From NCBI RefSeq assembly GCF_000233955.1, contig NZ_JH376609.1:1-64000 (forward strand): a stretch of 64,000 nt of DNA, given 5' to 3'. Shown in pieces: positions 2,513 to 49,177 of the stretch. The stretch comes from Paraprevotella clara YIT 11840. Its GTDB lineage: Bacteria; Bacteroidota; Bacteroidia; Bacteroidales; Bacteroidaceae. The notes below the pieces were generated by a model. The model had not been told where the DNA came from, did no database searches, and was given only the letters and a program-made list of their open reading frames with translations. How positions within the stretch are numbered: the stretch's first letter is position 1; each line of letters begins with the position of its first letter. The translations under genes were made by a program, and so were the position numbers.

Positions 2513-4450
2513 ATGAAAAACCTTCTTCTTTGCTGCCTTGCTGCAACCTTAGCCGTCTCCTCCTGCCAGAAAACGAGCATCAGGCAGACGCTGGAAAAAG
2601 CCGGTGAAAACCGCCGGGAACTGGAAACCGTATTGGAACATTACAAAAATGAGCCGCTCAAAGAGAAAGCCGCACGCTTCCTTCTGGAAAACATGGACGG
2701 GCATTTCGCCCACACCGGTGAAGCCGTCGACGTGTACGACAATTACATGGACAGTGTGTTCCGCCATTGCAACGGAGACCGTGTGTTCTGGATCATGAAA
2801 TACGATACTATCTTGCAACGAACAGGCCTGGATTTGGAATTAAGCCAAGACGAACGCCTGTACGATGCCCAATCCGTCACGGCAGACTTCCTGACCGAAC
2901 ATATCGACAGTGCATTCACCGTATGGCAACAGAACTGGAACAAACAATACAGTTTCGAAATGTTCTGCCGCTATGTGCTGCCTTACCGTATCGGGAATGA
3001 AAAGACAAGTCTTTGGAGGAAGACATTCACCGTGCCTTCATGGGTGCGCGAAGCATACGCCCCCAACCAAGACAACTCCACCTATGCCTATGGCATGGCC
3101 AACGACATTCTGGGAGGCATGCGTTCCGTCATTTACTATCCTCCGCAATTCCTTCCCGACCTTCCCCTCACGGCACTCGAACATGTCAAGTCGGCTTCCT
3201 GCAAGGAATATGCACACCTGTGCGTGGCCGTACTGAGGGCGCATGGCCTGCCTGCCACCATCGACTTCACACCACAGTGGGGCAACCGCGGATTGGGGCA
3301 TGAATGGTGCGTGTTCTTTCCCGACAACCATTCTTTCATCCCTTTCAATCCGGGGGAACGGCTCGGCGACCACTTCATGAAACGGAAGGAAGACCGGCTG
3401 ACCAAAGTGTTCCGCCAAACCTACGAGAAACAGCCGGAATCGCTCTATATGCAGAATAAGGGGGAAGAGGAGATTCCCGACCTTTTCGACACACCTTATA
3501 TCATGGATGTGACAAGGGAATACACGGCCACTTCCGATGTGGAAGTGGAGTTGTACGACGACGTTGAAAGCGGCAGGTTCGTCTACCTGTCCGTCTTCGA
3601 CAACCAAGACTGGAGCATCGTGCATTGGGGTACGCGCCACGGACGGAAAGCCACCTTCCGGGACATGGCACGAAACGTAGTGTACATGCCCGTACATTAT
3701 TCCGAAGAAAACGGCACGGTTCCGGCCGGAGACGCTTTCCTTTTAGACCCGCGAGGAAATATCCATAAAATGACAGCCGACACCACACAACGCACGACGG
3801 TGGAAGTGAAACGCAAATTCCGCGACGTACGTTCCAACCAATTCCTTCAGGGCGTAATCGGCGGGAAGTTCCAAGTGGCCAACCAGGAAGACTTCAGCGA
3901 TTCGCTGACCATACATGTCATCCCGCACCTGAAGGACAACAAATTCCATGTCGTCCATCCCCGTTACATCGGCGAATACAGATATTTCCGTTACCTGTCG
4001 CCGGACTGGTCGAGGGGCAACATGGCCGAACTTTATACGTTCAATGCCGCCGGCGACACGCTGAAGCATAAACGGCTGATGGGCAACTTCCACGTACGTC
4101 CCTGGTGTGGGCCGGAAAACCTGTTCGACGGTAATGTCCTTTCCTTCTACGACTCCCACGACGTGTACGGCGTATGGTACGGATGGGAACTGGAACAGCC
4201 GGAAAACGTGGCACGTATCGTATTCCTGCCGCGTAACGATGACAACTTCATCCGCGAAGGCGAAGAATACGAATTGTTCTATTGGAACCACGGGACATGG
4301 ATGTCATTAGGGCGCAAGACGGGGAATTTCGAGGCGGTATTGAAATACGACAACGTCCCGGCCCAGGCCTTGTTCCGCCTGCACAACCGTACCAAAGGCT
4401 CGGAAGAAAGAATCTTCACTTACGAAGACGGAAAGCAAATCTGGTGGTAA
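2513..4450 (+). CDS. transglutaminase-like domain lipoprotein (645 aa)
   Basis: The start at 2513 is chosen because it gives a clean lipoprotein signal: M-K-N-L-L-L, a hydrophobic run, then the lipobox V-S-S-C with Cys at residue 18. A longer frame from 2267 only reads through the previous gene. A transglutaminase-like (papain-fold) core lies near residues 225-285: the putative catalytic Cys is in 'SASCKEYAHL' (about residue 229) and the His in 'GLGHEW' (about 263); an Asn occupies the usual third position in 'IPFNP'. The C-terminal 350 residues look like beta-sandwich domains, ending in a region resembling discoidin-type modules. In Bacteroidales such lipoproteins are usually annotated as transglutaminase-domain proteins; their real substrate is unknown. 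It is the last gene of the 1-4450 group. Confidence 0.75.
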   Translation: MKNLLLCCLAATLAVSSCQKTSIRQTLEKAGENRRELETVLEHYKNEPLKEKAARFLLENMDGHFAHTGEAVDVYDNYMDSVFRHCNGDRVFWIMKYDTILQRTGLDLELSQDERLYDAQSVTADFLTEHIDSAFTVWQQNWNKQYSFEMFCRYVLPYRIGNEKTSLWRKTFTVPSWVREAYAPNQDNSTYAYGMANDILGGMRSVIYYPPQFLPDLPLTALEHVKSASCKEYAHLCVAVLRAHGLPATIDFTPQWGNRGLGHEWCVFFPDNHSFIPFNPGERLGDHFMKRKEDRLTKVFRQTYEKQPESLYMQNKGEEEIPDLFDTPYIMDVTREYTATSDVEVELYDDVESGRFVYLSVFDNQDWSIVHWGTRHGRKATFRDMARNVVYMPVHYSEENGTVPAGDAFLLDPRGNIHKMTADTTQRTTVEVKRKFRDVRSNQFLQGVIGGKFQVANQEDFSDSLTIHVIPHLKDNKFHVVHPRYIGEYRYFRYLSPDWSRGNMAELYTFNAAGDTLKHKRLMGNFHVRPWCGPENLFDGNVLSFYDSHDVYGVWYGWELEQPENVARIVFLPRNDDNFIREGEEYELFYWNHGTWMSLGRKTGNFEAVLKYDNVPAQALFRLHNRTKGSEERIFTYEDGKQIWW

Positions 4451-24683: not shown

Positions 24684-25682
24684 ATGTTATTAGATCCAGT
24701 TGTTTTTCCGGTATTCATTGCCATTGTCGCCATCGTTATCCTGGCGATATTTTTCCATTTCGTACCGTTCTTCCTTTGGCTTTCCGCCAAAGTCTCCGGC
24801 GTACACATTTCGCTCATCCAGCTATTCCTGATGCGCATCCGTAACGTGCCGCCCGGCGTCATCGTGCCAAGCCTCATCGAAGCCCATAAGGCCGGCCTGA
24901 AGAACATCACCCGCGACAATCTGGAAGCCCACTACATGACGGGCGGACATGTGCAACGCGTGGTACATGCCTTGGTTTCGGCATCGAAAGCCAACATCGA
25001 CCTACCTTTTGAAAAGGCCACGGCCATAGACCTGGCCGGCCGCGACGTGTTCGAGGCCGTGCAGACTTCCGTCAATCCGAAGGTAATCGACACGCCACCC
25101 GTAGCCGCCGTAGCCAAAAACGGTATCCAGTTGATAGCGAAGGCCCGTGTCACCGTACGCGCCAACATCCACCAGCTTGTGGGAGGTGCAGGCGAGGACA
25201 CCATCCTGGCCCGTGTAGGCGAAGGTATCGTTTCTTCCATCGGATCAGCCGAAAACCACGAGCAAGTTCTGGAAAATCCGGACTCTATCTCCAAATTGGT
25301 ACTCAAAAAGGGTCTGGATGCCGGTACGGCTTTTGAAATCCTGTCCATCGACATTGCCGACATCGACGTAGGTAAAAACATCGGTGCCACCCTGCAAATC
25401 GACCAAGCCAACGCCGACAAAAACATCGCACAGGCCAAGGCCGAGGAACGCCGTGCCATGGCTATCGCCGCCGAACAGGAAATGAAAGCCAAGGCGCAGG
25501 AAGCACGTGCCGAAGTCATTCAGGCCGAAGCCGAAGTGCCCAAAGCTTTGGCACAAGCCTTGCGCGACGGTCACATGGGTTTCATGGACTACTACAAACT
25601 GGAAAATCTGAAAGGCGACACAGCCATGCGTGAGAACATCGGCAATCTGACGAAAGACGGAATGAAAGATATTCTGAAGTAA
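24684..25682 (+). CDS. floA: flotillin-like protein FloA
   Basis: A 332-aa scaffold protein with one N-terminal hydrophobic hairpin (residues 5-33), an SPFH/band-7-like domain ('[20 protein letters not shown]'), '[22 protein letters not shown]', and a coiled-coil Ala/Glu-rich stretch ('[26 protein letters not shown]' region). It is last in frr-rsgA-nfeD-floA and followed by a terminator at 25713. Members localise to functional membrane microdomains. Confidence 0.95.
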
Positions 25683-40228: not shown

Positions 40229-41212
40229 CTATTTCAACTCCACCAACTCATATTGCTGACTGCCCAACCCGATTTGCTCGGCATAGTCCAACGTATGCAT
40301 GCCGTGCCGGGAGTCTATGCGTTCAATCAGGTGTATCTTTCCATGGTCTTCCGAAGCACGTACCTGGTCCACACAAGCCCGGTCGAGTGCCACGGGGTCG
40401 AGCGAAGCCAGGATTCCGATGTCCCCCATCTTCGGATCTTCGGGCGTGGCCACGCAATCGCAATCCACCGAAAGTTTATTGGCCACGCTGATATACAAGA
40501 TACGGTCGCCGCAATGGTCGGCCACAGCTTTGGCCGCTTCGGCCATCGACTCTAAGAAATCGTCCTGCGGAGGCAATTTGCCCCACACTTCTTTCACGCT
40601 CTTCGTTTTTCCGGCGGAATGAATGTAAGCCTTCCCCGAAGAAGAAGCGATACCGATGGAGATATTCTTGATAGCCCCACCGAAACCGCCCATCGGGTGA
40701 CCTTTGAAATGGGACAACACTACGGTAAAGTCATATTCCGGATACGCCTTTCCCACAAAATCTTCTTTCAAATGCTTTCCCCCTTTCACGGGCAACGAAA
40801 CTTCTCCGTCCGCATCCATGATGACTACCGGGGCTATGGCCGTAAAGCCGTGGTCTTTGGCCGCTTTCAGATGCTTTTCCGTATCGGAACGTCCGCCGCC
40901 GTAGGCCGTATTGCACTCCACGATAGTGCCGTCCACCTTCTGCACCAACCCTTTTATCAATGCCGGATCGAGGTAATTGTTATTTCCGGGTTCGCCGGTG
41001 GAAAGCTTCACCGCCACTTTTCCGGTAGCCTTCCGCCCGAGCGCTTCATACACTTTCATCAGGCTCTCCGGACTGATTTCTTTTATCATATACACTTTGG
41101 CCGGTACTTTTTCCGACCGTGTCTCACAAGCAGTCCCCTGTCCCTTCACACTGGAAGCCCACAGGGAAAGACCTGCCCACGCGCAAACCGCGAATAAAAA
41201 CAAACGTTTCAT
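40229..41212 (-). CDS. DUF362 domain-containing exported protein
   Basis: A 327-aa protein with a signal peptide ('LFLFAVCAWAGLSLWASS'). DUF362 patterns: 'KVAVKLSTGEPGNNNYLDP', 'VVLSHFKGHPMGGFGGAIKNISIG' and 'CDCVATPEDPKMGDIGILASLDPVALDRACVD'. DUF362 proteins often carry ferredoxin-type Cys clusters; this one has only the D-C-D-C pair, so no iron-sulfur site is evident. Function unknown. The start at 41212 is chosen for the signal peptide; the longer frame to 41275 runs into the upstream gene. It follows the metallo-hydrolase gene by 20 nt, so they are likely one operon. Confidence 0.85.
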   Translation of the reverse strand: MKRLFLFAVCAWAGLSLWASSVKGQGTACETRSEKVPAKVYMIKEISPESLMKVYEALGRKATGKVAVKLSTGEPGNNNYLDPALIKGLVQKVDGTIVECNTAYGGGRSDTEKHLKAAKDHGFTAIAPVVIMDADGEVSLPVKGGKHLKEDFVGKAYPEYDFTVVLSHFKGHPMGGFGGAIKNISIGIASSSGKAYIHSAGKTKSVKEVWGKLPPQDDFLESMAEAAKAVADHCGDRILYISVANKLSVDCDCVATPEDPKMGDIGILASLDPVALDRACVDQVRASEDHGKIHLIERIDSRHGMHTLDYAEQIGLGSQQYELVELK

Positions 41213-41232
41213 GACCCTATATTTTAAAAAAC

Positions 41233-42321
41233 TCATTTTACACTCCATTCCACCACTTCTCCAATCATCGGACACAAGACTTCCAGCGAGCTGTCCTCAG
41301 CCAGCTTACGGACGTTCTCCAACGGTTCGTCCCAACGGTGGCGTGCCAACGCGTATTTGGAATGGTGCACCGTGAGCACCCGTCGGGCACCCAAAGCTTC
41401 AGCTTCCGCATGCTGGTATTTGGGCAACGTGTGGATATAACGCCAGTCTACGTTGTACTGCCCGTTCTCCAACACGGCCAGATCTATCCCCGGAAAACGT
41501 TTCCCGATGTCGGCATAGTGCGCTCCGTAGCCGCCGTCCCCACCGATGTACACCTTACGCCCCGCCGCTTCTACCAGAAAAGACGCCCACAGGGTACGGT
41601 TCGACCGCAAACCACGGCCGGAGAAATGACGGGCAGGCAAGCAATGTACCGTCACACCGCCGCCCAACGTAGCCGTCTCGTTCCAATCCAACTCCACCAA
41701 CCGTTCCGGTTCGTAGCCCCAGTACTCGAAATGTTCGCCCACACCCAAAGGACACACCACCTTACGGACACGCCCCTTCAGGCGCGTCACCGTCCCGTAA
41801 TCCAAATGGTCCCAATGGTCATGCGTAATCACCAGGCAATCTATATCCGGCATATCTTCCGGACGATAGATATCCGTCCCCGGAAAAGGCTTATTCAGGA
41901 AAGATACCGGAGCGGCACCGCAAAACACGGGGTCTACCAAAATACGCTTGCCGCCCAGTTGAAACAAATAGGAAGAATGCCCGAACCATACCAAAAGCTC
42001 CCTATCCGGGTCGAGTGCACGCAAATCCGTCTTCACCGACGGAACCGGATGTTCCGGACGCAATCCTTCCGGCGACTTTTTGAAAACGAAATCCAGCATG
42101 GCCCCCCATTTCCCCTTTTCCGAAGTCATCAGGACGGTAGGTTCCATGTTACGGAACTCCCCGTCCCTGAAATTCGGCGACCGCTTGATACGTTCCAACC
42201 GTTCGCCACGCGGCAAACGCCCGAACGACGGCGTCTGAAGGAAAAGGACCACAGCCACAATTGCCACAGCTATGACACACAATATGACGAGCAATATCTT
42301 TATCATTTTCTTCCGATACAT
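41233..42321 (-). CDS. metallo-beta-lactamase-fold hydrolase (NAPE-PLD/UlaG-like), membrane-anchored
   Basis: A 362-aa protein with one N-terminal transmembrane segment (residues 7-29). The metal-binding motif is 'ITHDHWDHLDYG' (H-x-H-x-D-H), with further ligands likely in 'CLPARHFSGRG' and 'GGDGGYGAH', and a C-terminal His in 'TVHHSKYAL'. The arrangement resembles N-acylphosphatidylethanolamine phospholipase D-like bacterial enzymes more than class B beta-lactamases, so a lipid or phosphodiester substrate is possible. An alternative start is at 42306. A -7 element lies at 42355. Confidence 0.82.
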   Translation of the reverse strand: MYRKKMIKILLVILCVIAVAIVAVVLFLQTPSFGRLPRGERLERIKRSPNFRDGEFRNMEPTVLMTSEKGKWGAMLDFVFKKSPEGLRPEHPVPSVKTDLRALDPDRELLVWFGHSSYLFQLGGKRILVDPVFCGAAPVSFLNKPFPGTDIYRPEDMPDIDCLVITHDHWDHLDYGTVTRLKGRVRKVVCPLGVGEHFEYWGYEPERLVELDWNETATLGGGVTVHCLPARHFSGRGLRSNRTLWASFLVEAAGRKVYIGGDGGYGAHYADIGKRFPGIDLAVLENGQYNVDWRYIHTLPKYQHAEAEALGARRVLTVHHSKYALARHRWDEPLENVRKLAEDSSLEVLCPMIGEVVEWSVK

Positions 42322-42354
42322 GTCTTTTTTAAACTTTATCTCCTAATGTCCCGG

Positions 42355-42362
42355 CAAAGATA
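42355..42362 (-). promoter_or_regulatory. probable promoter (-7 element) of the metallo-hydrolase gene
   Basis: Minus-strand TATCTTTG, 33 nt before the ATG; -33 element not evident. Confidence 0.5.
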
Positions 42363-42449
42363 AGCGTTCGCCCGGAAATATCCTATACCTTTTTTACTTG
42401 ATTTACAACCGGAATTACTTCCCGGCCTTCCGAATGCGGATTCCGGTCC

Positions 42450-43178
42450 TCATCCTTTCATCATCCTGACATACAGCCACCCCGGTATATGACGATACAC
42501 CCAAGCAGCCAGTCTCCAGCGTCGGGTGACATATACGACCTTACGCCGCCGGTCGATACCTCGTGCGATTTGCCGACAAGCCTTGTCCACCGGAGCGACC
42601 CAAAACAGCCCCTCCCCCTTGGCCATGGCCGTATCTACAAAACCGGGACGGATGTCTGTCACCTCTATCGGCAGCCGCCGCACGGCCACACGCTGACGCA
42701 ACCCTTCCAAATAATTCATCTGGAAAGATTTTGTGGCATTATAGGCCGGTGCCGCCCCACTGCCGCGCAGGCCGCCCACCGAGGTGACAGTTGCCAGATG
42801 CCCCTGTCCCCGGTTTTCAAAATACCGTATGGCCCAGTCCGCCACGCAAGTCCACCCCGTCACGTTCGTATCCAACGTGCAACGCTCTACGGCATAATCC
42901 AGCTCCGGATTCAAGTCTCCCGTCCCGGAAGCAAGCACCAGAATATCCACTCCTCCCAAGCGGGACGCCAAACGCTCCAATGCCACCGGAAGCGCCTCCG
43001 TGTCCGTCACATCACACACCTCTGCTTCAAACACATCCGGACGCGACGCACACAAGTCTTTCAAACGGCCCGACCGACGCCCCATCACTCCGATTTTCAC
43101 CTCTCCGCGTTCCGCATACAAACGAGCCAATCCCTCACCGATACCGGACGTGGCTCCCACAATCAAAATTCTCTTCAT
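42450..43178 (-). CDS. short-chain dehydrogenase/reductase (SDR)
   Basis: A 242-aa Rossmann-fold oxidoreductase. Cofactor motif 'VGATSGIGEG' (T-G-x3-G-x-G type) is at residues 7-16; 'RRSGR' after the second strand suggests NADPH preference. 'VLASGTGD' stands in for the usual NNAG. The catalytic set is Ser in 'TSVGG', Tyr and Lys in 'YNATK'. The C-terminus is hydrophobic and basic ('WRLAAWVYRHIPGWLY'), suggesting membrane contact. Substrate unknown. Preceded by a -7 element at 43216. Confidence 0.9.
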   Translation of the reverse strand: MKRILIVGATSGIGEGLARLYAERGEVKIGVMGRRSGRLKDLCASRPDVFEAEVCDVTDTEALPVALERLASRLGGVDILVLASGTGDLNPELDYAVERCTLDTNVTGWTCVADWAIRYFENRGQGHLATVTSVGGLRGSGAAPAYNATKSFQMNYLEGLRQRVAVRRLPIEVTDIRPGFVDTAMAKGEGLFWVAPVDKACRQIARGIDRRRKVVYVTRRWRLAAWVYRHIPGWLYVRMMKG

Positions 43179-43215
43179 GGTCGTTTACATTTTATTTCCA
43201 CTTTCGATTTTCGGG

Positions 43216-43223
43216 CAAAGTTA
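43216..43223 (-). promoter_or_regulatory. probable promoter (-7 element) of the SDR gene
   Basis: Minus-strand TAACTTTG, 37 nt before the SDR ATG and just after the stop of the Crp/Fnr gene; -33 element not evident. Confidence 0.5.
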
Positions 43224-43255
43224 AAAGGGAGCCGCCGGATTTTCCTTGAAGTATT

Positions 43256-43837
43256 TCAAGAAATTCCGGACTTCAACAATTTTTTCCGGATGGCACTCAC
43301 CGTTTCGGGCGTCACCCCGATAAACGAAGCGATTTCTTTCAGCGGACGCTGTTCTTTCAGTTCGGGATAACGCCTCATCAAGTCCATATAACGCTCTTCG
43401 GGCGTACAACAATAACTGTCCATCAAACGGCGGTAGGTCATGACGAACAGTTGCTCAGCCACGATGCGCCCCAAACGCTGATGTTCAGGAGACATTTCCC
43501 AGTAACGCCTCAGCTTTTCGTAAGGCAAGACGTAAAGCGTGCTTCTCACGATAGCCTGCACGTCCGCCAACGCCGGACGGCTACAAAGGCACGAGGTGTA
43601 TTCGGCCACGAAACTGTCGCGGAAGCTATACCCGACGATATGCTCCCCACCTTTCGTGTCCGTCCGCACGAAACGGAACATGCCGTCTTCCACATAGGCC
43701 ACACGCCCCGACCGTCCGCCTTGCCGCACAAAATAATCCTGCTTTTCCAATATCCGCCGCTCCCCTTGTTCCAAAAAGAACCGTTTCATGGCCGAGAGGT
43801 CCAGCTCTTCCATATAATAATCATTTATCGCATCCAT
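43256..43837 (-). CDS. Crp/Fnr family transcriptional regulator
   Basis: A 193-aa regulator: cyclic-nucleotide-binding-like beta-roll (residues 20-120, 'GGRSGRVAYVEDGMFRFV', 'FRDSFVAEYTS') and a C-terminal winged helix ('PLKEIASFIGVTPETVSAIRKKL'). It lacks the Fnr Cys set and a standard cAMP pocket signature, so the signal is unknown. It lies 77 nt upstream of the SDR gene in the same direction and may regulate it. A promoter -7 element at 43842-43849 is only 4 nt before this ATG, so the message may be leaderless or start at the Met at 43813. Confidence 0.9.
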   Translation of the reverse strand: MDAINDYYMEELDLSAMKRFFLEQGERRILEKQDYFVRQGGRSGRVAYVEDGMFRFVRTDTKGGEHIVGYSFRDSFVAEYTSCLCSRPALADVQAIVRSTLYVLPYEKLRRYWEMSPEHQRLGRIVAEQLFVMTYRRLMDSYCCTPEERYMDLMRRYPELKEQRPLKEIASFIGVTPETVSAIRKKLLKSGIS

Positions 43838-43841
43838 GCCG

Positions 43842-43849
43842 CAAAATTA
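43842..43849 (-). promoter_or_regulatory. promoter (-7 element) of the Crp/Fnr gene
   Basis: Minus-strand TAATTTTG. A normal start about 7 nt downstream would fall at the annotated ATG, implying a leaderless mRNA or a start at 43813. Confidence 0.45.
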
Positions 43850-44023
43850 ATATTTTCCGCGTATACCCGCACATTTATTTCCCCAACCTATCAATTTATC
43901 AGATTGTCAATATCCCCCCACACAAGACGACACTTCCGGCAAATTCAAATTGGTTTTGAAAGAAGGGGACAAGTGAAGGATGCCGGAGTGCCCTTCGTTG
44001 TCCTTTTCTGTCTCTTGTTTTTG

Positions 44024-44071
44024 CCGCACACTGGAAAATCATTGTGCTGTGATTGATTTTCCGGTTTGCGG
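44024..44071. repeat. intergenic palindromic repeat, copy D (divergent)
   Basis: Arms around GGAAAATCA (ending 44041) and TGATTTTCC (starting 44054) pair perfectly for 9 bp and extend imperfectly to CCGCA/TGCGG. The GGAAAATC word is shared with copies A, B and C, though GGCTGAGA is missing. Confidence 0.5.
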
Positions 44072-44275
44072 TAATTGTTTTTGGTTTCTTTGCTTGTCTT
44101 TCTATGCCTCTCCCCTCCATACAGGGAGATATGTGGAAAAATCCATTCGCATCCTTCATACTTATTGGCTTACAGGTTGTTAAGGTGAACTTTCTTCATC
44201 TATAGGGTTCACCGGGTATTCACCAGAGAGGGGTATGAAGATGTCGGTTGTGGATGATTGTCGCTGAAAGAAGGC

Positions 44276-44301
44276 TGAAGGATGGATGAGTACATCCTTC
44301 A
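44276..44301. repeat. short hairpin repeat, TGAAGGATG type
   Basis: Arms TGAAGGATG and CATCCTTCA with an 8-nt loop, the same arms as the hairpin at 4540-4566. Another half unit (CTGAAGGATGAAACATG) follows near 44340. Confidence 0.55.
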
Positions 44302-44441
44302 CCATAACCTGTTGTATTCCAGAAGCTTGAAAAGCTTCCTGAAGGATGAAACATGTTTTTGAAAACTTGCTGTGTATGTCCATTTGGAGGGATGTTTCAG
44401 GTCTGTGCCAACCCGTATTACCATGCCGCAGGCGTAAATTT

Positions 44442-44453
44442 CCCGTTAACGGG
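44442..44453. repeat. perfect 12-bp palindrome CCCGTTAACGGG
   Basis: A dyad without loop, about 100 bp upstream of the first cassette peptide. It could be a regulator-binding site; no second copy was noticed in the window. Confidence 0.35.
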
Positions 44454-44550
44454 GTTAGTAAATATTAGTAAAAAAAGCACAGCGGTTGACATTGTCCTTT
44501 GGAAATTTTGTAATTACTTTGCCTCCGAATCCCATGCAGGTAGTCGGTAT

Positions 44551-44652
44551 AAAATAGCGTAAAGCCGCGAAATCTGCAAAGGGTATAATTTTAAAAATCA
44601 AGTGTTATGAAGAAGAAGTTCCTCGCGCCCTTGACGGGCGCAGTGGCGTTGG
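44551..44652 (+). repeat. 102-bp direct repeat, copy 1 (leader plus start of NVEALA-like peptide)
   Basis: This block and 46083-46184 align without gaps over 102 bp with about 8 mismatches by eye. It includes 56 bp before the ATG and the first 15 codons of the peptide gene. It marks the repeated unit of the two tandem cassettes. Confidence 0.85.
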
Positions 44653-44744
44653 TTGCAAACAAGGACGTTACAATATATTTGAAGAATGACAATGAATGTT
44701 TTATTGCAATCTTGAAAAAAGCTTTTAACTTTAGAAATTATTAG
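44607..44744 (+). pseudogene. degenerate NVEALA-like exported peptide, copy 1 (45 aa)
   Basis: Starts M-K-K-K-F-L-A-P-L-T-G-A-V-A like NVEALA-domain peptides of Bacteroidales, which have a short signal-like N-terminus, a central NVEALA motif and a Cys-rich tail. After residue 18 the similarity to copy 2 ends and there is no NVEALA motif and no paired Cys; the frame stops after 45 codons. It is therefore probably a broken or deleted gene. The beta-propeller lipoprotein gene starts 47 nt later. NVEALA peptides have no established function. Confidence 0.55.
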
Positions 44745-44791
44745 AGTTAAGTTGTGTTTGTTTTTATATTTTACATATCAAGTAGATTCTT

Positions 44792-45910
44792 ATGAGAAAA
44801 AACAATCTGATGAAATTGGGATTTTTTGTCAATATCCTTTTTTTCTTGTTATCCTGCGGGGGAAAGCAACAGGGCGGTATTCCTGTTCATTCGGTAGACG
44901 TACTGCAAAGAGACAGTGTAAACCATTTCTTTTCCGGTTATGAATATGTCATGTTGGAAACCAATGAAAATTGTTTGTTGGGTGAGGTAAAAGGTATGAA
45001 AGTCTATGACTCGGTGATAGGCATAAGGGAGCGTGAAAGAATACTTCTGTTCGGACATGACGGAAAGTTTATTTCTAAAATAGATAAAAAGGGACGTGGA
45101 GCAGGAGAGTACCTGTCTGTGGAGGACTTTTGCGTCAGGGATTCTTTGGTATATGTGCTCTCAGGTGCTTATAAATCTATCTTAGTATACGGCATGAGCG
45201 GTACTTTTGTACGTAAAATAGAACTAGGTGATTGGTATGGGCATTTTGAGGTTCTGGATGACGAATTGATGTTCCTTTCCTCTGAATATAACAATGAAAA
45301 ACGATATAACTTTGTGGTGTTCAATTATGTCAAACAGGAGGATGCGGCTGTCTTTTCCCCTTTCGAGACAAATGAAGGCGTTGCATTCGGGGACTTTCTT
45401 CCATTTTGTGGAACCTATGACAATGGCCGGTATGCGATCCTTCCTTTTGATTGTACCTATACGGTATATCAGTTGGACAAGTCCGGCTTTACGTCTCATT
45501 GCCGATTTGAGTTCAATACAGAAGATCGGCTTGAAGAAGGTATGCCATTATTCGATTTATACCAGAGGACTAGTGGCAGGGATGTAGTGCGTTATTTGGG
45601 GCTTTATGAAGAATGTAACGGTTCCATATATGTGACATTTGAACTTTTTACGACCAAGGGAGGTATAGGTACTTTTGTATATAAGGTCGGATCGGACAAA
45701 AAGTCCTACCTCATGCGGTTGCAAGAAAAGCACATCCCTACATATCCCTACGTATCAAGTCCTTATGGGGTATATAAAGGCTCATTCTATTCCATTGTAG
45801 AACCTTCCACTATAATGTATATAGAAAATCAGTATGGTCTGTCCTTATTTCGTGACAAAGGGCTGACGGAAGAAAGCAACCCCGTGGTATTCTTTCATAA
45901 ATTGAAATGA
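44792..45910 (+). CDS. 6-bladed beta-propeller lipoprotein (372 aa)
   Basis: Lipoprotein signal with 'FFLLSC' and Cys22. The body has repeated beta-strand patterns of the Bacteroidales 6-bladed propeller family: 'MLETNENCLLGEVKGMKVYDSVIGI', 'ILLFGHDGKFISKIDKKGRGAGEYLSVEDF' (the G-x-G-x-G-E-Y/F turn is diagnostic) and 'YNFVVFNYVKQ'. Ligand unknown; such proteins often accompany NVEALA peptides. The stop overlaps the start of the next short CxxC frame by 4 nt (ATGA). Codon use is more AT-rich than the housekeeping genes. Alternative start at 44810. Confidence 0.8.
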   Translation: MRKNNLMKLGFFVNILFFLLSCGGKQQGGIPVHSVDVLQRDSVNHFFSGYEYVMLETNENCLLGEVKGMKVYDSVIGIRERERILLFGHDGKFISKIDKKGRGAGEYLSVEDFCVRDSLVYVLSGAYKSILVYGMSGTFVRKIELGDWYGHFEVLDDELMFLSSEYNNEKRYNFVVFNYVKQEDAAVFSPFETNEGVAFGDFLPFCGTYDNGRYAILPFDCTYTVYQLDKSGFTSHCRFEFNTEDRLEEGMPLFDLYQRTSGRDVVRYLGLYEECNGSIYVTFELFTTKGGIGTFVYKVGSDKKSYLMRLQEKHIPTYPYVSSPYGVYKGSFYSIVEPSTIMYIENQYGLSLFRDKGLTEESNPVVFFHKLK

Positions 45911-46089
45911 AATATGAGGCATACCGATGTTTTATGTTGCCGATGTTCCTTGCTTCGTATCGTGGCGGGGAAGCATGTTCTTCTTGCGGGTTGAAGGCAA
46001 TGTACTTGCGGGACGGGCGGATTCATGATTGGGAGCCGTATGGCAAGAGTGTGTCTCCTTGTTTTATCTTCATGCCATTGCAAAAATAG
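45907..46089 (+). pseudogene. truncated CxxC thioredoxin-like protein, copy 1 (60 aa)
   Basis: Starts on the ATGA overlap with the propeller gene. It has 'ACSSCGLKAM' (CxxC) and ends 'CFIFMPLQK'. The 47468 fragment has matching parts, 'TCSSCALRKM' and 'CFIFRPLPK', so the two are homologous. The stop (TAG) is supplied by the first bases of the 102-bp repeat at 46083, which means the 3' part of the gene was probably lost at the duplication junction. Full-length relatives likely continue beyond 'FRPLPKD'. It may act as a small redox protein if expressed, but it is probably a remnant. Confidence 0.55.
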
Positions 46090-46184
46090 CGTGAAGCCGC
46101 GAAACTTGCAAAGGGTATAATTTTAAAAATCAAGTGTTATGAAGAAGAAATTCTTCGCGCCCTTGACGAGTGCAGTGGTGTTGG
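46083..46184 (+). repeat. 102-bp direct repeat, copy 2
   Basis: Second copy of the block at 44551-44652 (about 8 mismatches in 102 bp, no gaps). Its 5' end coincides with the truncated 3' end of the CxxC gene. Confidence 0.85.
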
Positions 46185-46361
46185 GCTCGCCGGTCTACGC
46201 CGGGTATTGCACTTATGATACGTACCATGGAGTGAGTGAGAGTGGTTTGTTATTGGAAATCCAAGGTAAGAACAGGATATACTTATTATGATTGCGGTTC
46301 CTGTGACAGGGTATATGATGAGCAAGGAAAAGGAAGTACATCCAAATGCCTTCCTAAGTAA
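46139..46361 (+). pseudogene. frameshifted NVEALA-like Cys-rich peptide, copy 2
   Basis: Frame 0 gives 50 codons: M-K-K-K-F-F-A-P-L-T, a small hydrophobic stretch, then 'AGYCTYDTYHGVSESGLLLE' and a stop at 46289. In the +1 frame, after about 46260, a convincing Cys-rich tail continues: 'RTGYTYYDCGSCDRVYDEQG' and ends '...CLPK' at 46361. This tail is typical of NVEALA peptides. One lost base near 46260, where the NVEALA-like motif should be, would explain both. Sequencing error or phase-type slippage cannot be excluded, though there is no long homopolymer at the site. Confidence 0.65.
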
Positions 46362-46443
46362 AAGTGTTTAATAAATTAATTCATGGAGGAGAAGGTTTGA
46401 TAAGGACTTGCTTCTTCTGTTTCCTAATTAAAAATAAGAATAA

Positions 46444-47466
46444 ATGTTGAGCGATAAGTTTAAAAGTAACAAAGGAGTGGTATTTTCTCTTGTTATTTTA
46501 TTATTAGTTTGTTGTAAGGGGCGGGAGAACGTGAAGCTTGTGGAAGGATTCCCGTCGGAATATGATTTAAAAGCGACAGGAATAGATTCCCTTAATCGTT
46601 ATCCCGGTACTTATGCCATTTCTATGGTGAGAGATAAATTTATCGGGATGAGAAAGGCAGACCATTTCTTTTTCGCGTTGAACAATGATTTCTCTTTGAT
46701 ATCCGAAATCGCAGCCAAGGGACATGGCAATGGAGAGTTCATGGCCCCTCTTTATTGTGGCCAGCATGTGGAGGAAAGTGGGAAAGAATATGTGTACATA
46801 TTGGAACGTCCAAAGCGTAAATTATATAAGGTCGCATTGGATGAGTCAGAACAGAATGAATGTATATTTGAGATCCCTATGTCATGGAACATAGAACCGT
46901 CTTTTCTTTTTCTCCACGGGAAAGATAGTTGTCTGGGAGTGAACAATTTGTATAGTTGCAATTTCTTTGTGGCAGATTTGTCCCAAGATGAAGCGGAGGA
47001 ACAGGACGCTGTATATGAATTTTCGGGAACGGAGGAGGATATTTTCAACGTGGCACAAAGCACGGCTTCTTATTCAGCCGAGAATTCCCGCGTAGCTATG
47101 GCGTATTTCAATCTTCCGGAGATAGATATCCGTGCTTCGGATGGACGTTTGATACAATCTGTTTTTTATGAAGATGTGATGAAACCGTCAGAAATAAACC
47201 CGTATGAACCACGTATGTTTTTTGCTTATGTCACTTCCACCTCTCGTCATATTTATGCTTTATATATTGGAGATGAAGAAGAACAGGATGCAGGTAAAAG
47301 CCTGATTTTGGTTTTTGATTGGGACGGCAATCCTGTTTGCCGTTTGAGGATTGATGCAAGCGTATGTTTTGCGATTGATACGAAAAACCATCGGATAGTT
47401 TCCATTAATGAAGCCGACACCCATTTTGTAGCTTCGGAGTATAGGTTGCCTGACATATTGCAGTAG
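46444..47466 (+). CDS. TolB-like beta-propeller lipoprotein (BF3164 type, 340 aa)
   Basis: Exported lipoprotein: hydrophobic 'VVFSLVILLLVCCKG' with Cys at about residue 24-25. Propeller-type patterns 'FFFALNNDFSLISEIAAKGHGNGEFMAP' (G-x-G-x-G-E-F turn), 'YVYILERPKRKLYKVAL' and 'LVFDWDGNPVCRLRID'. It is related in plan, but not closely in sequence, to the propeller gene at 44792. It is the middle gene of the second cassette and is followed immediately by the CxxC remnant at 47468. Confidence 0.75.
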   Translation: MLSDKFKSNKGVVFSLVILLLVCCKGRENVKLVEGFPSEYDLKATGIDSLNRYPGTYAISMVRDKFIGMRKADHFFFALNNDFSLISEIAAKGHGNGEFMAPLYCGQHVEESGKEYVYILERPKRKLYKVALDESEQNECIFEIPMSWNIEPSFLFLHGKDSCLGVNNLYSCNFFVADLSQDEAEEQDAVYEFSGTEEDIFNVAQSTASYSAENSRVAMAYFNLPEIDIRASDGRLIQSVFYEDVMKPSEINPYEPRMFFAYVTSTSRHIYALYIGDEEEQDAGKSLILVFDWDGNPVCRLRIDASVCFAIDTKNHRIVSINEADTHFVASEYRLPDILQ

Positions 47467-47467
47467 T

Positions 47468-47679
47468 ATGAAGTTGGTTGTATATACGGATACAGCGACT
47501 TGTTCTTCGTGTGCCTTGCGAAAGATGCACTTGTGGAATGGGTATTGACTGATTTAGCACTTTATAAAGGGGCCATTCAATGCTGTTTCATATTTCGTCC
47601 CTTGCCTAAAGACATGAATGGCGGAAGAGGACGCAGGGCAGCCTACTGGAAAGCCCTTATTCTAAAAAGGATTTTTTAA
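47468..47679 (+). pseudogene. frameshifted CxxC thioredoxin-like protein, copy 2
   Basis: The ATG is one base after the stop of the propeller gene. Frame 0 reads 'MKLVVYTDTATCSSCALRKM' and stops after 26 codons at 47548. From 47545 the +2 frame continues 'LTDLALYKGAIQCCFIFRPL' and runs to a stop at 47679. Together they match the fragment at 45907 (CSSC, then C-x-I-F-x-P-L). A single frameshift around 47545 thus splits the gene. The protein would be a short thioredoxin-like domain without a signal peptide. Confidence 0.6.
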
Positions 47680-47688
47680 CGCGAGCGG

Positions 47689-47720
47689 ATTGCATATATT
47701 TCCTCAATACCTTAACTTTG
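47689..47720 (+). promoter_or_regulatory. promoter of the alpha/beta hydrolase gene
   Basis: TAACTTTG (47713-47720) matches the -7 element; ATTG (47689-47692), 20 nt upstream, is a 3/4 match to TTTG. Confidence 0.65.
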
Positions 47721-47746
47721 AATATCGACTTTAAAACCTTTTCGCC

Positions 47747-49177
47747 ATGAAAAAGATGATATTGGGATGTTTTTTGTATGGGACGGCCATAGGATTATAT
47801 GCACAAGCCCCACAAGGAGACTTCAAAGGCTCAATACAAATAGGGCAAACGACAATGCCTATCGTGTTCCACTTCGGACAGCAGAACGGCCAACCGACAA
47901 CCACCATGGACAGTCCTGCACAAGGAGTTTTCGGTTTCCCAGTACAATCGTCTGAATGTATTTCCGACGGAGAATTAACCCTGAAAATCCCACAAATACA
48001 GTTCCGCTATGTAGGCAAAGTACGCAGCGACTCCCTGATAGAGGGGACGGTGACGCAAGCCGGGCAGTCCCTTCCGCTGAATTTGGTACGCACGGCCCGG
48101 AAAGCCGGTGTGTCGTCTGAACCGGAAAGGCCCGGCACCCCAAAACCGCCCTTCCCCTACCGGGAAGAAGAGGTAAGCGTCACAACAAAAGACGGCATAA
48201 AATTATCGGGTTCACTGACTTTGCCCGAAGGGGAAGGGCCATTCCCTGCCGTGCTCCTTATTTCCGGCAGCGGGCCGCAAGATCGGAATGAAGAGGCATG
48301 GAAGTACAAACCGTTTCTCATGATAGCCGACTGCCTGACCCGGCAAGGCATCGCCGTACTCCGCATGGATGACCGCGGGACCGGCAAGTCCGGAGGCCGC
48401 TATGCCGACGCCACCTTGCAACTCGCTGCCACGGATGCGGAATGTGCCTTGGATTATCTTCTCCGACGGAAAGACATCCGACGCGGTAAGACCGGACTGG
48501 CCGGACACAGCATGGGCGGCACCATCGCTTTCCGTATAACCGCGCAACGTCCGCAAGACGTGGCTTTCGTACTTTCATTGGCCGGAGCCGCCATTCCGGG
48601 AAAAGACCTGATGATGCACCAATGTGAGAAGATCATCCTTTCGCAACTCCCTGCCACCACAAGCGACAGCCTGCGCACCCTGTACGAGGAACTGTACGGC
48701 ACCATGGCGCTCCCCCTTCCGCTCGACTCCATACGCCACAGGAGCACTCCTCTCATGGTCTCCATTTGGCAGCATCTCGGCATAAACGAAGACACCTACC
48801 GGGAAAACCTCACGGACAGCATCCGCCGACGCAAGGCCCGCCAACTCACCGGACAAGCCATAAGTCCGGAAATAGCCAGTATCATACAATATGACCCGAG
48901 CCATGACTTAAGCCGGGTGCAATGCCCCGTATGGGCCGTCAATGGAGCAAAAGACCTGCAAGTATTGCCCGAAGAGAACCTGAAAGCCATCAAAACGCTC
49001 GCAAAAGGAAGCCCGCAAGTCGTCACGCACATTTATCCCGGCCTGAACCACCTGTTCATGGAAGCCCCCACCGGGCATCCCTCGGAATACGGACTTCTAA
49101 AAGGGAATTTCAGTCAGGAAGTGCTGCAAGACATGGCGGAATGGATCAGGAAAACCGTAGGGGCACCGGCTGATTAA
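47747..49177 (+). CDS. exported alpha/beta hydrolase (esterase/acylaminopeptidase-like)
   Basis: A 476-aa protein with signal peptide ending 'GLYAQA'. Residues 22-125 form a beta-rich N-terminal domain common to Bacteroidales serine hydrolases of this type. The catalytic domain starts at 'EEVSVTTKDGIKLSGSLTLP'. Oxyanion region 'LISGSGPQDRNEE', 'MDDRGTGKSGG', nucleophile Ser in 'GLAGHSMGGTIAF', Asp probably in 'NGAKDLQV', His in 'GLNHLF'. Likely a periplasmic esterase or peptidase; substrate unknown. It converges on the GH95-like gene with only 4 nt between the stops. Confidence 0.88.
   Translation: MKKMILGCFLYGTAIGLYAQAPQGDFKGSIQIGQTTMPIVFHFGQQNGQPTTTMDSPAQGVFGFPVQSSECISDGELTLKIPQIQFRYVGKVRSDSLIEGTVTQAGQSLPLNLVRTARKAGVSSEPERPGTPKPPFPYREEEVSVTTKDGIKLSGSLTLPEGEGPFPAVLLISGSGPQDRNEEAWKYKPFLMIADCLTRQGIAVLRMDDRGTGKSGGRYADATLQLAATDAECALDYLLRRKDIRRGKTGLAGHSMGGTIAFRITAQRPQDVAFVLSLAGAAIPGKDLMMHQCEKIILSQLPATTSDSLRTLYEELYGTMALPLPLDSIRHRSTPLMVSIWQHLGINEDTYRENLTDSIRRRKARQLTGQAISPEIASIIQYDPSHDLSRVQCPVWAVNGAKDLQVLPEENLKAIKTLAKGSPQVVTHIYPGLNHLFMEAPTGHPSEYGLLKGNFSQEVLQDMAEWIRKTVGAPAD

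Follow-up and report, generated by a model that had tools for sequence, protein, structure and literature searches.

Among described systems, the bacteroidetocins of Bacteroidales are one of the closest to the locus studied here. According to the report describing them (PMC6671954), these toxins have cores of 42 amino acids (aa) with four cysteines, and deletion of a thiol oxidoreductase attenuates toxin activity; the authors also state there that Bacteroides lack general disulfide machinery. In this work we analysed the first 64,000 nucleotides (nt) of contig NZ_JH376609.1 of Paraprevotella clara YIT 11840 (the window), in which positions 44551-47679 carry two tandem remnant units. Each unit is made up of a gene for a short exported peptide of the NVEALA type (N), a gene for a beta-propeller lipoprotein (P) and a piece of a gene for a thioredoxin-like protein with a CxxC motif (T). 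With a probability of roughly 0.55, we read the region as two dead cassettes, displaced together, that belonged to a polymorphic system of exported disulfide peptides.

NVEALA and DUF5128 were absent from 5.39 million open papers, and DUF4934 and BT_3928 were likewise not found in the open literature (subscription papers, preprints and supplements lay outside the scope of the search), and the novelty of the system is to be taken as 'not found' in that literature, short of proved. A table of iron-dependent genes of B. thetaiotaomicron lists the O-antigen ligase family protein BT0662 and the 6-bladed beta-propeller BT0664, no system being named there (PMC10434189). The main text of a survey of ribosomally synthesized and post-translationally modified peptides of Bacteroidales mentions no thioredoxin, propeller, signal peptidase or DoxX (PMC10352776).

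Two remnant cassettes in the window

The two units comprise the following features:

44551-44652, + strand: first copy of a 102-nt direct repeat (8 mismatches to the second copy), covering 5′ untranslated region and the start of the N leader
44607-44744, + strand: N1, remnant of an NVEALA-type prepeptide gene, about 15 leader residues still recognisable
44792-45910, + strand: P1, open gene for a 6-bladed beta-propeller lipoprotein of 372 aa (PF17170, E 3.6e-32)
45907-46089, + strand: T1, CxxC remnant of a thioredoxin-like lipoprotein gene (12.7 bits with the T-family hidden Markov model, HMM, over 45901-46086)
46083-46184, + strand: second copy of the direct repeat, 102 nt
46139-46291, + strand: N2 head, leader of the second NVEALA-type peptide (HMM 18.7 bits), after which the frame changes
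46236-46361, + strand: N2 tail, Cys-containing end of the core in another frame, with weak likeness to the cores of L110 and L103
46444-47466, + strand: P2, open gene for a propeller lipoprotein of 340 aa (PF15869, E 2.5e-7; family HMM, E 7e-34)
47468-47545, + strand: T2 first piece, CxxC remnant (T-family HMM 25.6 bits, E 1.1e-6, over 47432-47545)
47500-47679, + strand: T2 second piece in another frame, assigned by eye from the open reading frame, the remainder of the gene missing

The initial annotation of this DNA had reported tandem units headed by 102-bp direct repeats at 44551 and 46083, CxxC genes starting at the ends of the propeller genes, and damage to four of the six parts. All of this was borne out: the repeats differ at 8 positions, T1 starts in a 4-nt ATGA overlap with the P1 stop and T2 starts 1 nt past the P2 stop, both propeller genes are open, and both N and both T genes are remnants.

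The propellers belong to known families (P1: 112 bits with PF17170, cut-off 22.9; P2: 30.8 bits with PF15869, cut-off 29.2), and their N-termini look by eye like lipoprotein signals. The structure model of P1, with a predicted local distance difference test score (pLDDT) of only 66, has 4raa as its best PDB match, followed by NHL and other propellers. Searches of the small window frames against Pfam and NCBIfam yielded no convincing match, be it to PF14055, thioredoxin or anything else (best E 0.03), so that their names rest on HMMs built here. These HMMs were built from intact relatives and applied to the remnants. In 200 shuffled copies of the region the best T HMM score was 8.7 bits and the best N HMM score 8.2, and the scores of N2, T1 and T2 exceeded all 200 shuffles.

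The N2 head is 77% identical across 39 aa (E 2e-17) to the leader of a living N gene on contig C41 of the same genome. By inspection its reading frame shifts after about 40 residues, and the N2 tail resembles the L110 and L103 cores at E 0.02 to 0.15 (among 148 N). N1 gave 7.0 bits, a score inside the shuffled range and weak by itself; its residues 1-15 are 80% identical to the intact leaders of L093 and L117 (E 2e-4), and further on homology is gone by inspection. We identify N1 by these 15 matching leader residues and by its position inside the repeat. T1 ends where the second repeat starts (46083), its signal peptide and second half missing. T2 is by inspection broken across frames with its second half absent, and its second piece alone matched no family in Pfam, NCBIfam or our HMMs. 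Only 37 and 27 residues of T1 and T2, respectively, match the T family and no signal peptide was seen, hence neither remnant holds a complete thioredoxin domain.

An intact operon in the same genome

The genome (4.23 Mb, 165 contigs, the window lying on C33) has 17 PF17170 matches, 16 of them above the cut-off. Contig C41 carries an intact operon with the order N-P-T-MauE-S-W:

K, upstream of the operon: lipoprotein-like, 653 aa
N: NVEALA-type peptide, 98 aa (PF14055 20.5 bits, below the cut-off of 27; fits the HMM built here)
P: propeller lipoprotein, 372 aa
T: thioredoxin-like CxxC lipoprotein, 190 aa
MauE/DoxX: 346 aa (PF07291, E 4.7e-14)
S: signal peptidase I, 299 aa (PF10502, E 2.7e-25)
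W: 579 aa, matching TPR and, at a score below the cut-off, Wzy_C

Copy 1 of the window repeat is 87% identical to the leader region of this operon. MauE, the dedicated signal peptidase I, the protein with Wzy_C and TPR matches and the lipoprotein of about 650 aa are parts of the system beyond those of the initial annotation. W relatives in L062, L087 and L105 match Wzy_C above the cut-off. A PF14055 search of the genome found a match on C36 only, N1 and N2 of the window remaining unmatched.

Gene order in other genomes

PF14055 is present in 36 of 201 genomes of the family and in 19 of 344 genomes of the order. Neighbourhoods were mapped in 34 of the 36 family genomes (not in G038 and G125) and around some T matches. 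Among 148 N genes (36 genomes) the next gene was P in 109 cases, T in 11 and another N in 11; the others were followed by an unlabelled gene of 300-450 aa (7), another gene (2), a gene on the opposite strand (3) or the end of the stretch (5). Mapping of 20 stretches from other families of the order yielded 30 N genes, 20 of them followed by P, and T, S, W and K recur there; the maps of L220 and L225, also from other families, contain no N. The initial annotation had proposed that the three products form a system, and had named a tabulation of the genes after N as a check for a local accident. That preset test spoke against a local accident, and a co-oriented group of the three gene types indeed recurs in many genomes. 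A fixed three-gene unit was not found: the repeated element is the N-P pair, and T is labelled in some clusters only.

T matches (alignment A1, 16 rows; at most 16 candidates scored per genome) were found in 36 of the 201 genomes. N and T co-occur in 29 genomes, compared with 6.4 expected from 36 positives each (Fisher 6e-22, ignoring relatedness); by genus, 12 of 30 are positive for N and 12 for T, and 11 are shared. Among the T genes, 51 are at least 120 aa long; 22 of these lie directly after P and 11 directly after N (summed by hand). One of the 51, in L081, had a score of just 18.9 bits and could be an ordinary TlpA.

A long N-P array (L203, 296-23492) is present on a 159-kb record that was deposited as a plasmid of Phocaeicola massiliensis; it comes with genes for signal peptidase and two T genes of nearly full length. 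The plasmid was typed as non-mobilizable; it is a possible mobile carrier. Phage origin was considered and rejected, T being unmatched in 50,697 phage records. By eye, the T and N of one IMG/VR contig (L200) are identical or almost identical to their counterparts in Xylanibacter rodentium, so this contig may be bacterial DNA; a second viral scan, made with an N peptide, returned L200 again and nothing else.

Variable cores and cognate propellers

N proteins have the make-up of prepeptides: a conserved membrane leader, with the NVEALA motif at its end, precedes a Cys-rich core that varies. Cores were analysed in 100 of the 109 N-P pairs, from 35 genomes (motif located by pattern, core of at least 15 residues, P above 250 aa; a few N were split too early by the motif pattern). 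The core following the motif has a median length of 43.5 residues and contains 7.3% Cys, compared with 1.9% in the propellers. Four is the commonest Cys count (43/100), and the count is even in 74/100.

Leaders are alike inside a genome (median normalised score 0.53 vs 0.22 between genomes), cores are not (0.00 vs -0.02). Core similarity across genomes goes with propeller similarity: for the 100 pairs r was 0.565, compared with 0.075 in within-genome shuffles, none of 500 being as high. After near-copies had been dropped r was 0.36 for 92 pairs vs 0.087 (standard deviation 0.027), with none of 2000 within-genome shuffles as high. The variable part is thus accompanied by a cognate partner, as in toxin-immunity systems. 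Core types also recur across bacterial families under different leaders (best pair: core 0.60, leader 0.22); 42 of 2800 cross-family core comparisons were above the best once-shuffled score.

Among 159 propellers, the nearest to P1 are 45%, 34% and 32% identical and come from three genera, the first from an intact cassette of a sister species. These three are paired with cores that resemble one another, clearly in two cases (score 0.53) and by eye in the third case. N1 is therefore likely to have encoded a core of this type in the past. P2 has distant relatives only (best 23% among the same 159).

The NVEALA motif holds A-x-A and lies by eye about 20 residues past the hydrophobic stretch, and many leaders also have a possible cleavage site just after that stretch. 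NVEALA was considered as the direct signal-peptidase site; both positions are candidates.

Different cassettes at the same locus

The main locus of the sister species (genome G087) has the order K-215aa-N-P-T-MauE, the same as on C41, where likewise a 215-aa protein without a convincing family match lies between K and N. Between the two species the locus differs in the N core, in P and over much of T's first part, and the P of G087 is the relative of window P1 mentioned above. DNA identity of the two loci is 82% in the untranslated region, 88% in the leader, 38% in the core, 48% in P, 52% in the 5′ part of T, 66% in its 3′ part and 96% at the start of MauE. Realigned alone, P gave 46% (41-51% with shuffled sister sequence) and the core 46% (39-58%). 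Since this is no better than shuffled, core and P of the two main loci are unrelated at the DNA level. The 5′ part of T realigned alone gave 54%, slightly above shuffles (39-50%).

Just upstream of the living N on C41 lies a relic (C41:4473-4655; L117 4470-4676), in which an N leader runs into a piece of a propeller. Compared with 15 loci, this piece is nearest to P2 (63 aa, 33%, E 1.7e-5), and the relic reads as the scar of an earlier cassette.

In both species P-type genes are inserted between trpG- and trpD-like genes of an apparent trp operon (names read from the proteins):

L023 2600-3886: own genome, contig C39, one P and a T tail
L141 2047-4988: G087, contig C1, P-P-T

The ratio of nonsynonymous to synonymous substitution rates (dN/dS) of the P at this site in the own genome is 0.13, equal to that of the trpG- and trpD-like genes (trpC-like: 0.21), and its dS is 0.81 vs 0.12-0.33 in the flanks. 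With dS so far above the flanks, this P, too, looks like a replaced allele.

Partner proteins

The CxxC motif of T is invariant in all 16 rows of alignment A1. The best PDB sequence match of T is StoA (E 0.001). The structure model (pLDDT 82) has StoA, DsbE and ResA as best folds (E about 1e-4 to 2e-4), with template modelling scores of 0.32-0.46 by query length for the top five, which indicates the fold class only. Intact T is predicted to be a StoA/ResA/TlpA-like thiol oxidoreductase of thioredoxin fold, and such a protein with an invariant CxxC fits the putative redox handling of the peptide that had been suggested initially. Two T proteins scanned against Pfam gave no significant match and one scanned against NCBIfam gave none. 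A longer form of T is fused to DUF1573 (one tested). An N subtype with a CxGxGSVxCP-like core was noticed by eye directly before a long T gene of DUF1573-fusion length (L067, L068, L070, L078 and others).

The signal peptidases of the clusters form one clade, separate from others of their kind (21 cluster and 20 other rows, support 99/97). Labels in this tree were set by locus, four pieces below 240 aa were dropped, one gene entered twice (L185, L197), and the cluster rows L172 and L184 adjoin T with no labelled N nearby. A Ser-containing motif is found in 20 of the 21 cluster proteins and a narrow Lys pattern in 16, and S of the intact clusters belongs to Peptidase_S26.

W (alignment A3) was found at 1e-20 in 69 of the 201 genomes, 31 of them N-positive. 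Its strongest subfamily (E <1e-120, a cut chosen after inspection of the list) occurs in 27 genomes, of which 25 are N-positive and 21 have it on the same contig as an N (hand counts). To judge from Wzy_C, W might ligate or glycosylate.

K was considered as a possible transglutaminase-like enzyme, but a sequence search gave 6g49 at just E 0.12. In the K family one Cys and one His are invariant across 8 aligned rows, and the C-terminal half resembles carbohydrate-binding modules; NCBIfam gave no match.

Surroundings of the window cassettes

43911-47632, no strand: segment of 3.7 kb differing from the sister species, where G087 has 613 bp of unrelated DNA
43991-44374, no strand: element of about 385 bp at the 5′ end of the insert, no gene recognised
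2513-4447, + strand: homologue of K, lipoprotein-like, about 650 aa (family HMM, E 7e-174), about 40 kb from the cassettes

The flanks of the differing segment, 41000-43910 and 47633-49167, are 95% and 94% identical to contig C82 of G087. With two genomes to compare, the cassettes may have been gained in the window genome or lost in the sister. The 385-bp element is 88% identical to C41:113-497, upstream of gene K; this is the one other strong copy in the genome, about 4 kb from N, with short weak matches elsewhere. In G087 the counterpart (85%) is found a short way ahead of the main-locus N leader. The element thus occurs with cassettes or near K (window 43991-44374, L117 113-497, L138 2848-3291). 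Transposition via flanking repeats was considered; the 102-nt repeat is only the shared leader region, and the 385-bp element has the single strong further copy given above.

A promoter pattern search in the cassette region found nothing upstream of either unit. The MauE HMM had no match in the window, and a signal-peptidase match (24935-25519, E 0.013) and a Wzy_C match (E 0.81) in the window were both taken for chance.

DISCUSSION

The preferred reading is that the window holds two displaced cassettes that belonged to a system of the type seen on C41. In such a system N would be a prepeptide exported by means of its membrane leader, which would be removed by the dedicated signal peptidase S. 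T, recharged by the MauE/DoxX membrane protein, would form or edit the disulfides of the core, and the cognate P would bind its particular core. The bacteroidetocin precedent and the fold of T suggest the cleavage, oxidation and binding steps. The difference between the main loci may stem from recombination within conserved borders, formed by the leader at one end and by the end of T with MauE at the other: the N core and P would be exchanged together with the first part of T, and displaced cassettes would decay elsewhere, the window included.

More broadly, Bacteroidales may possess a recombining and so far undescribed arsenal of disulfide peptides exported by Sec. Each peptide would have its cognate propeller lipoprotein (for immunity or display), all would share one maturation line (S, T, MauE and the Wzy_C protein), and cassettes would be swapped between an active locus and copies in decay that are scattered elsewhere, two of which would lie in the window. 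We hold this wider proposal tentatively, at slightly less than even odds. As parts of one system NVEALA peptides and DUF5128 propellers, separate families in Pfam, would both acquire a role that can be tested. Molecules of conflict or recognition are expected to show diverse cores matched to cognate partners, as well as solitary partners and cassette exchange, and the system, if real, would be a level, so far unexplored, at which gut bacteria compete or recognise themselves. The oxidation of exported peptides by Bacteroides, said in the bacteroidetocin report to lack general disulfide machinery (PMC6671954), would be addressed as well.

Several observations weigh against these proposals. Erosion of N1 has gone too far for its sequence alone to identify it. 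Training of the HMMs used stretches chosen around PF14055 matches, and the next-gene counts are valid for such stretches. Related genomes are not independent, and the Fisher values therefore overstate significance. Seven of the 36 N genomes lack T and seven of the 36 T genomes lack N. T occurs without a labelled N in L152-L154 and L156, and together with P yet without a labelled N in L121, L141, L143 and L145. Plasmids of Phocaeicola vulgatus/dorei also bear T: in the first one scanned there was no labelled N or P, and in a second Phocaeicola plasmid no N or P was among the annotated names beside T. Fewer than half of the clusters have a labelled MauE, and T or S is absent from many stretches; the system thus does not strictly require all its parts. 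Of the 69 W-type genomes (E 1e-20), 38 have no PF14055 match. Finally, the evidence for the swap at the main locus comes from a single genus, with two or three genomes.

Least certain in the scheme is what the peptide is used for, antagonism or self-recognition between bacteria being most likely. Antagonism, in which the cores would be narrow-spectrum antibacterial disulfide peptides, the propellers immunity proteins and solitary propellers retained immunity genes, is the leading candidate, though we rate it distinctly below an even chance. It would explain diverse cores with cognate propellers. Retention of P with loss of N and T at two sites (the window and the trp operon on C39) is also in keeping with it, as is the trp-site dN/dS, like that of two flanking genes, although this value includes time before the loss of T. 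Moreover, 18 of 154 full-length P genes sit less than 150 bp behind another P, and the distribution in the order is patchy, with a large array on the deposited P. massiliensis plasmid. On the other hand, no bacteriocin-type peptide exporter was labelled among neighbours that are only partly annotated and in which exporters were not searched with models, and by general knowledge a propeller of about 350 aa is unusually large for an immunity protein. The precedent itself cuts both ways: cores of about 43 aa, mostly with four Cys, resemble the bacteroidetocins with their 42 aa, four Cys and a thiol oxidoreductase in the locus, yet the bacteroidetocin producers themselves had no immunity gene (PMC6671954).

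Surface display or adhesion, with P as an outer-membrane scaffold that holds its own core, variation driven by phage, host or immune pressure and W perhaps glycosylating or ligating the product, seems to us rather unlikely. Lipoprotein-like propellers paired one-to-one with N, their tandem arrays, and different cassettes at one locus, as in antigenic variation, are compatible with it. The Wzy_C protein tied to the clusters points the same way, but could be chemically unrelated to the peptide.

Signalling, with the core as a pheromone, P as its receptor or carrier and the gene of about 215 aa as a regulator, is more doubtful still. It would account for the pairing of peptide and binder and for the presence of the 215-aa protein between K and N in both species, but that protein has no recognised regulator domain, and many different pairs coexist in one genome.

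That unrelated small reading frames came to lie beside two duplicated propellers by local accident, as the damage to four of six parts and the absence of convincing Pfam or NCBIfam matches in the fragments might suggest, is highly improbable: intact counterparts occur in the same order in the same genome and many others, a recurring gene order that rules the idea out, and N2, T1 and T2 score above all shuffles.

Comparison with known systems

The displaced-cassette system proposed here shares with the bacteroidetocins a small peptide with a leader, a four-Cys core, a thiol oxidoreductase and a membrane protein in the locus, and a Bacteroidales host. Bacteroidetocins have a double-glycine leader of 15-16 aa, a peptidase-containing ABC transporter and no immunity gene (PMC6671954), whereas here we find tandem arrays, a long membrane NVEALA leader, signal peptidase I and, as partners, a cognate propeller lipoprotein and a Wzy_C protein. 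The N proteins do not have the marks of class II bacteriocins (a double-glycine leader and a peptidase-ABC exporter): their leaders end in NVEALA-like motifs, and no such exporter was labelled among the partly annotated neighbours, which were not searched with exporter models.

Many living N proteins match the NVEALA family, PF14055, and their motif and leader are those of the family. The Pfam name stands for a short protein only; the pairing with propellers, the diversity of cores and the partners were established here. T shares its fold (at modest scores) and the invariant CxxC with the StoA/ResA/TlpA oxidoreductases, and differs from them as a lipoprotein-like subfamily tied to N-P clusters.

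Polymorphic toxin-immunity and cassette-switching systems have a conserved delivery end, an exchangeable effector-like end, a cognate partner and orphan partners. The system described here differs from them in that the variable part is a short Cys-rich peptide, its toxicity being putative, and the partner a large propeller.

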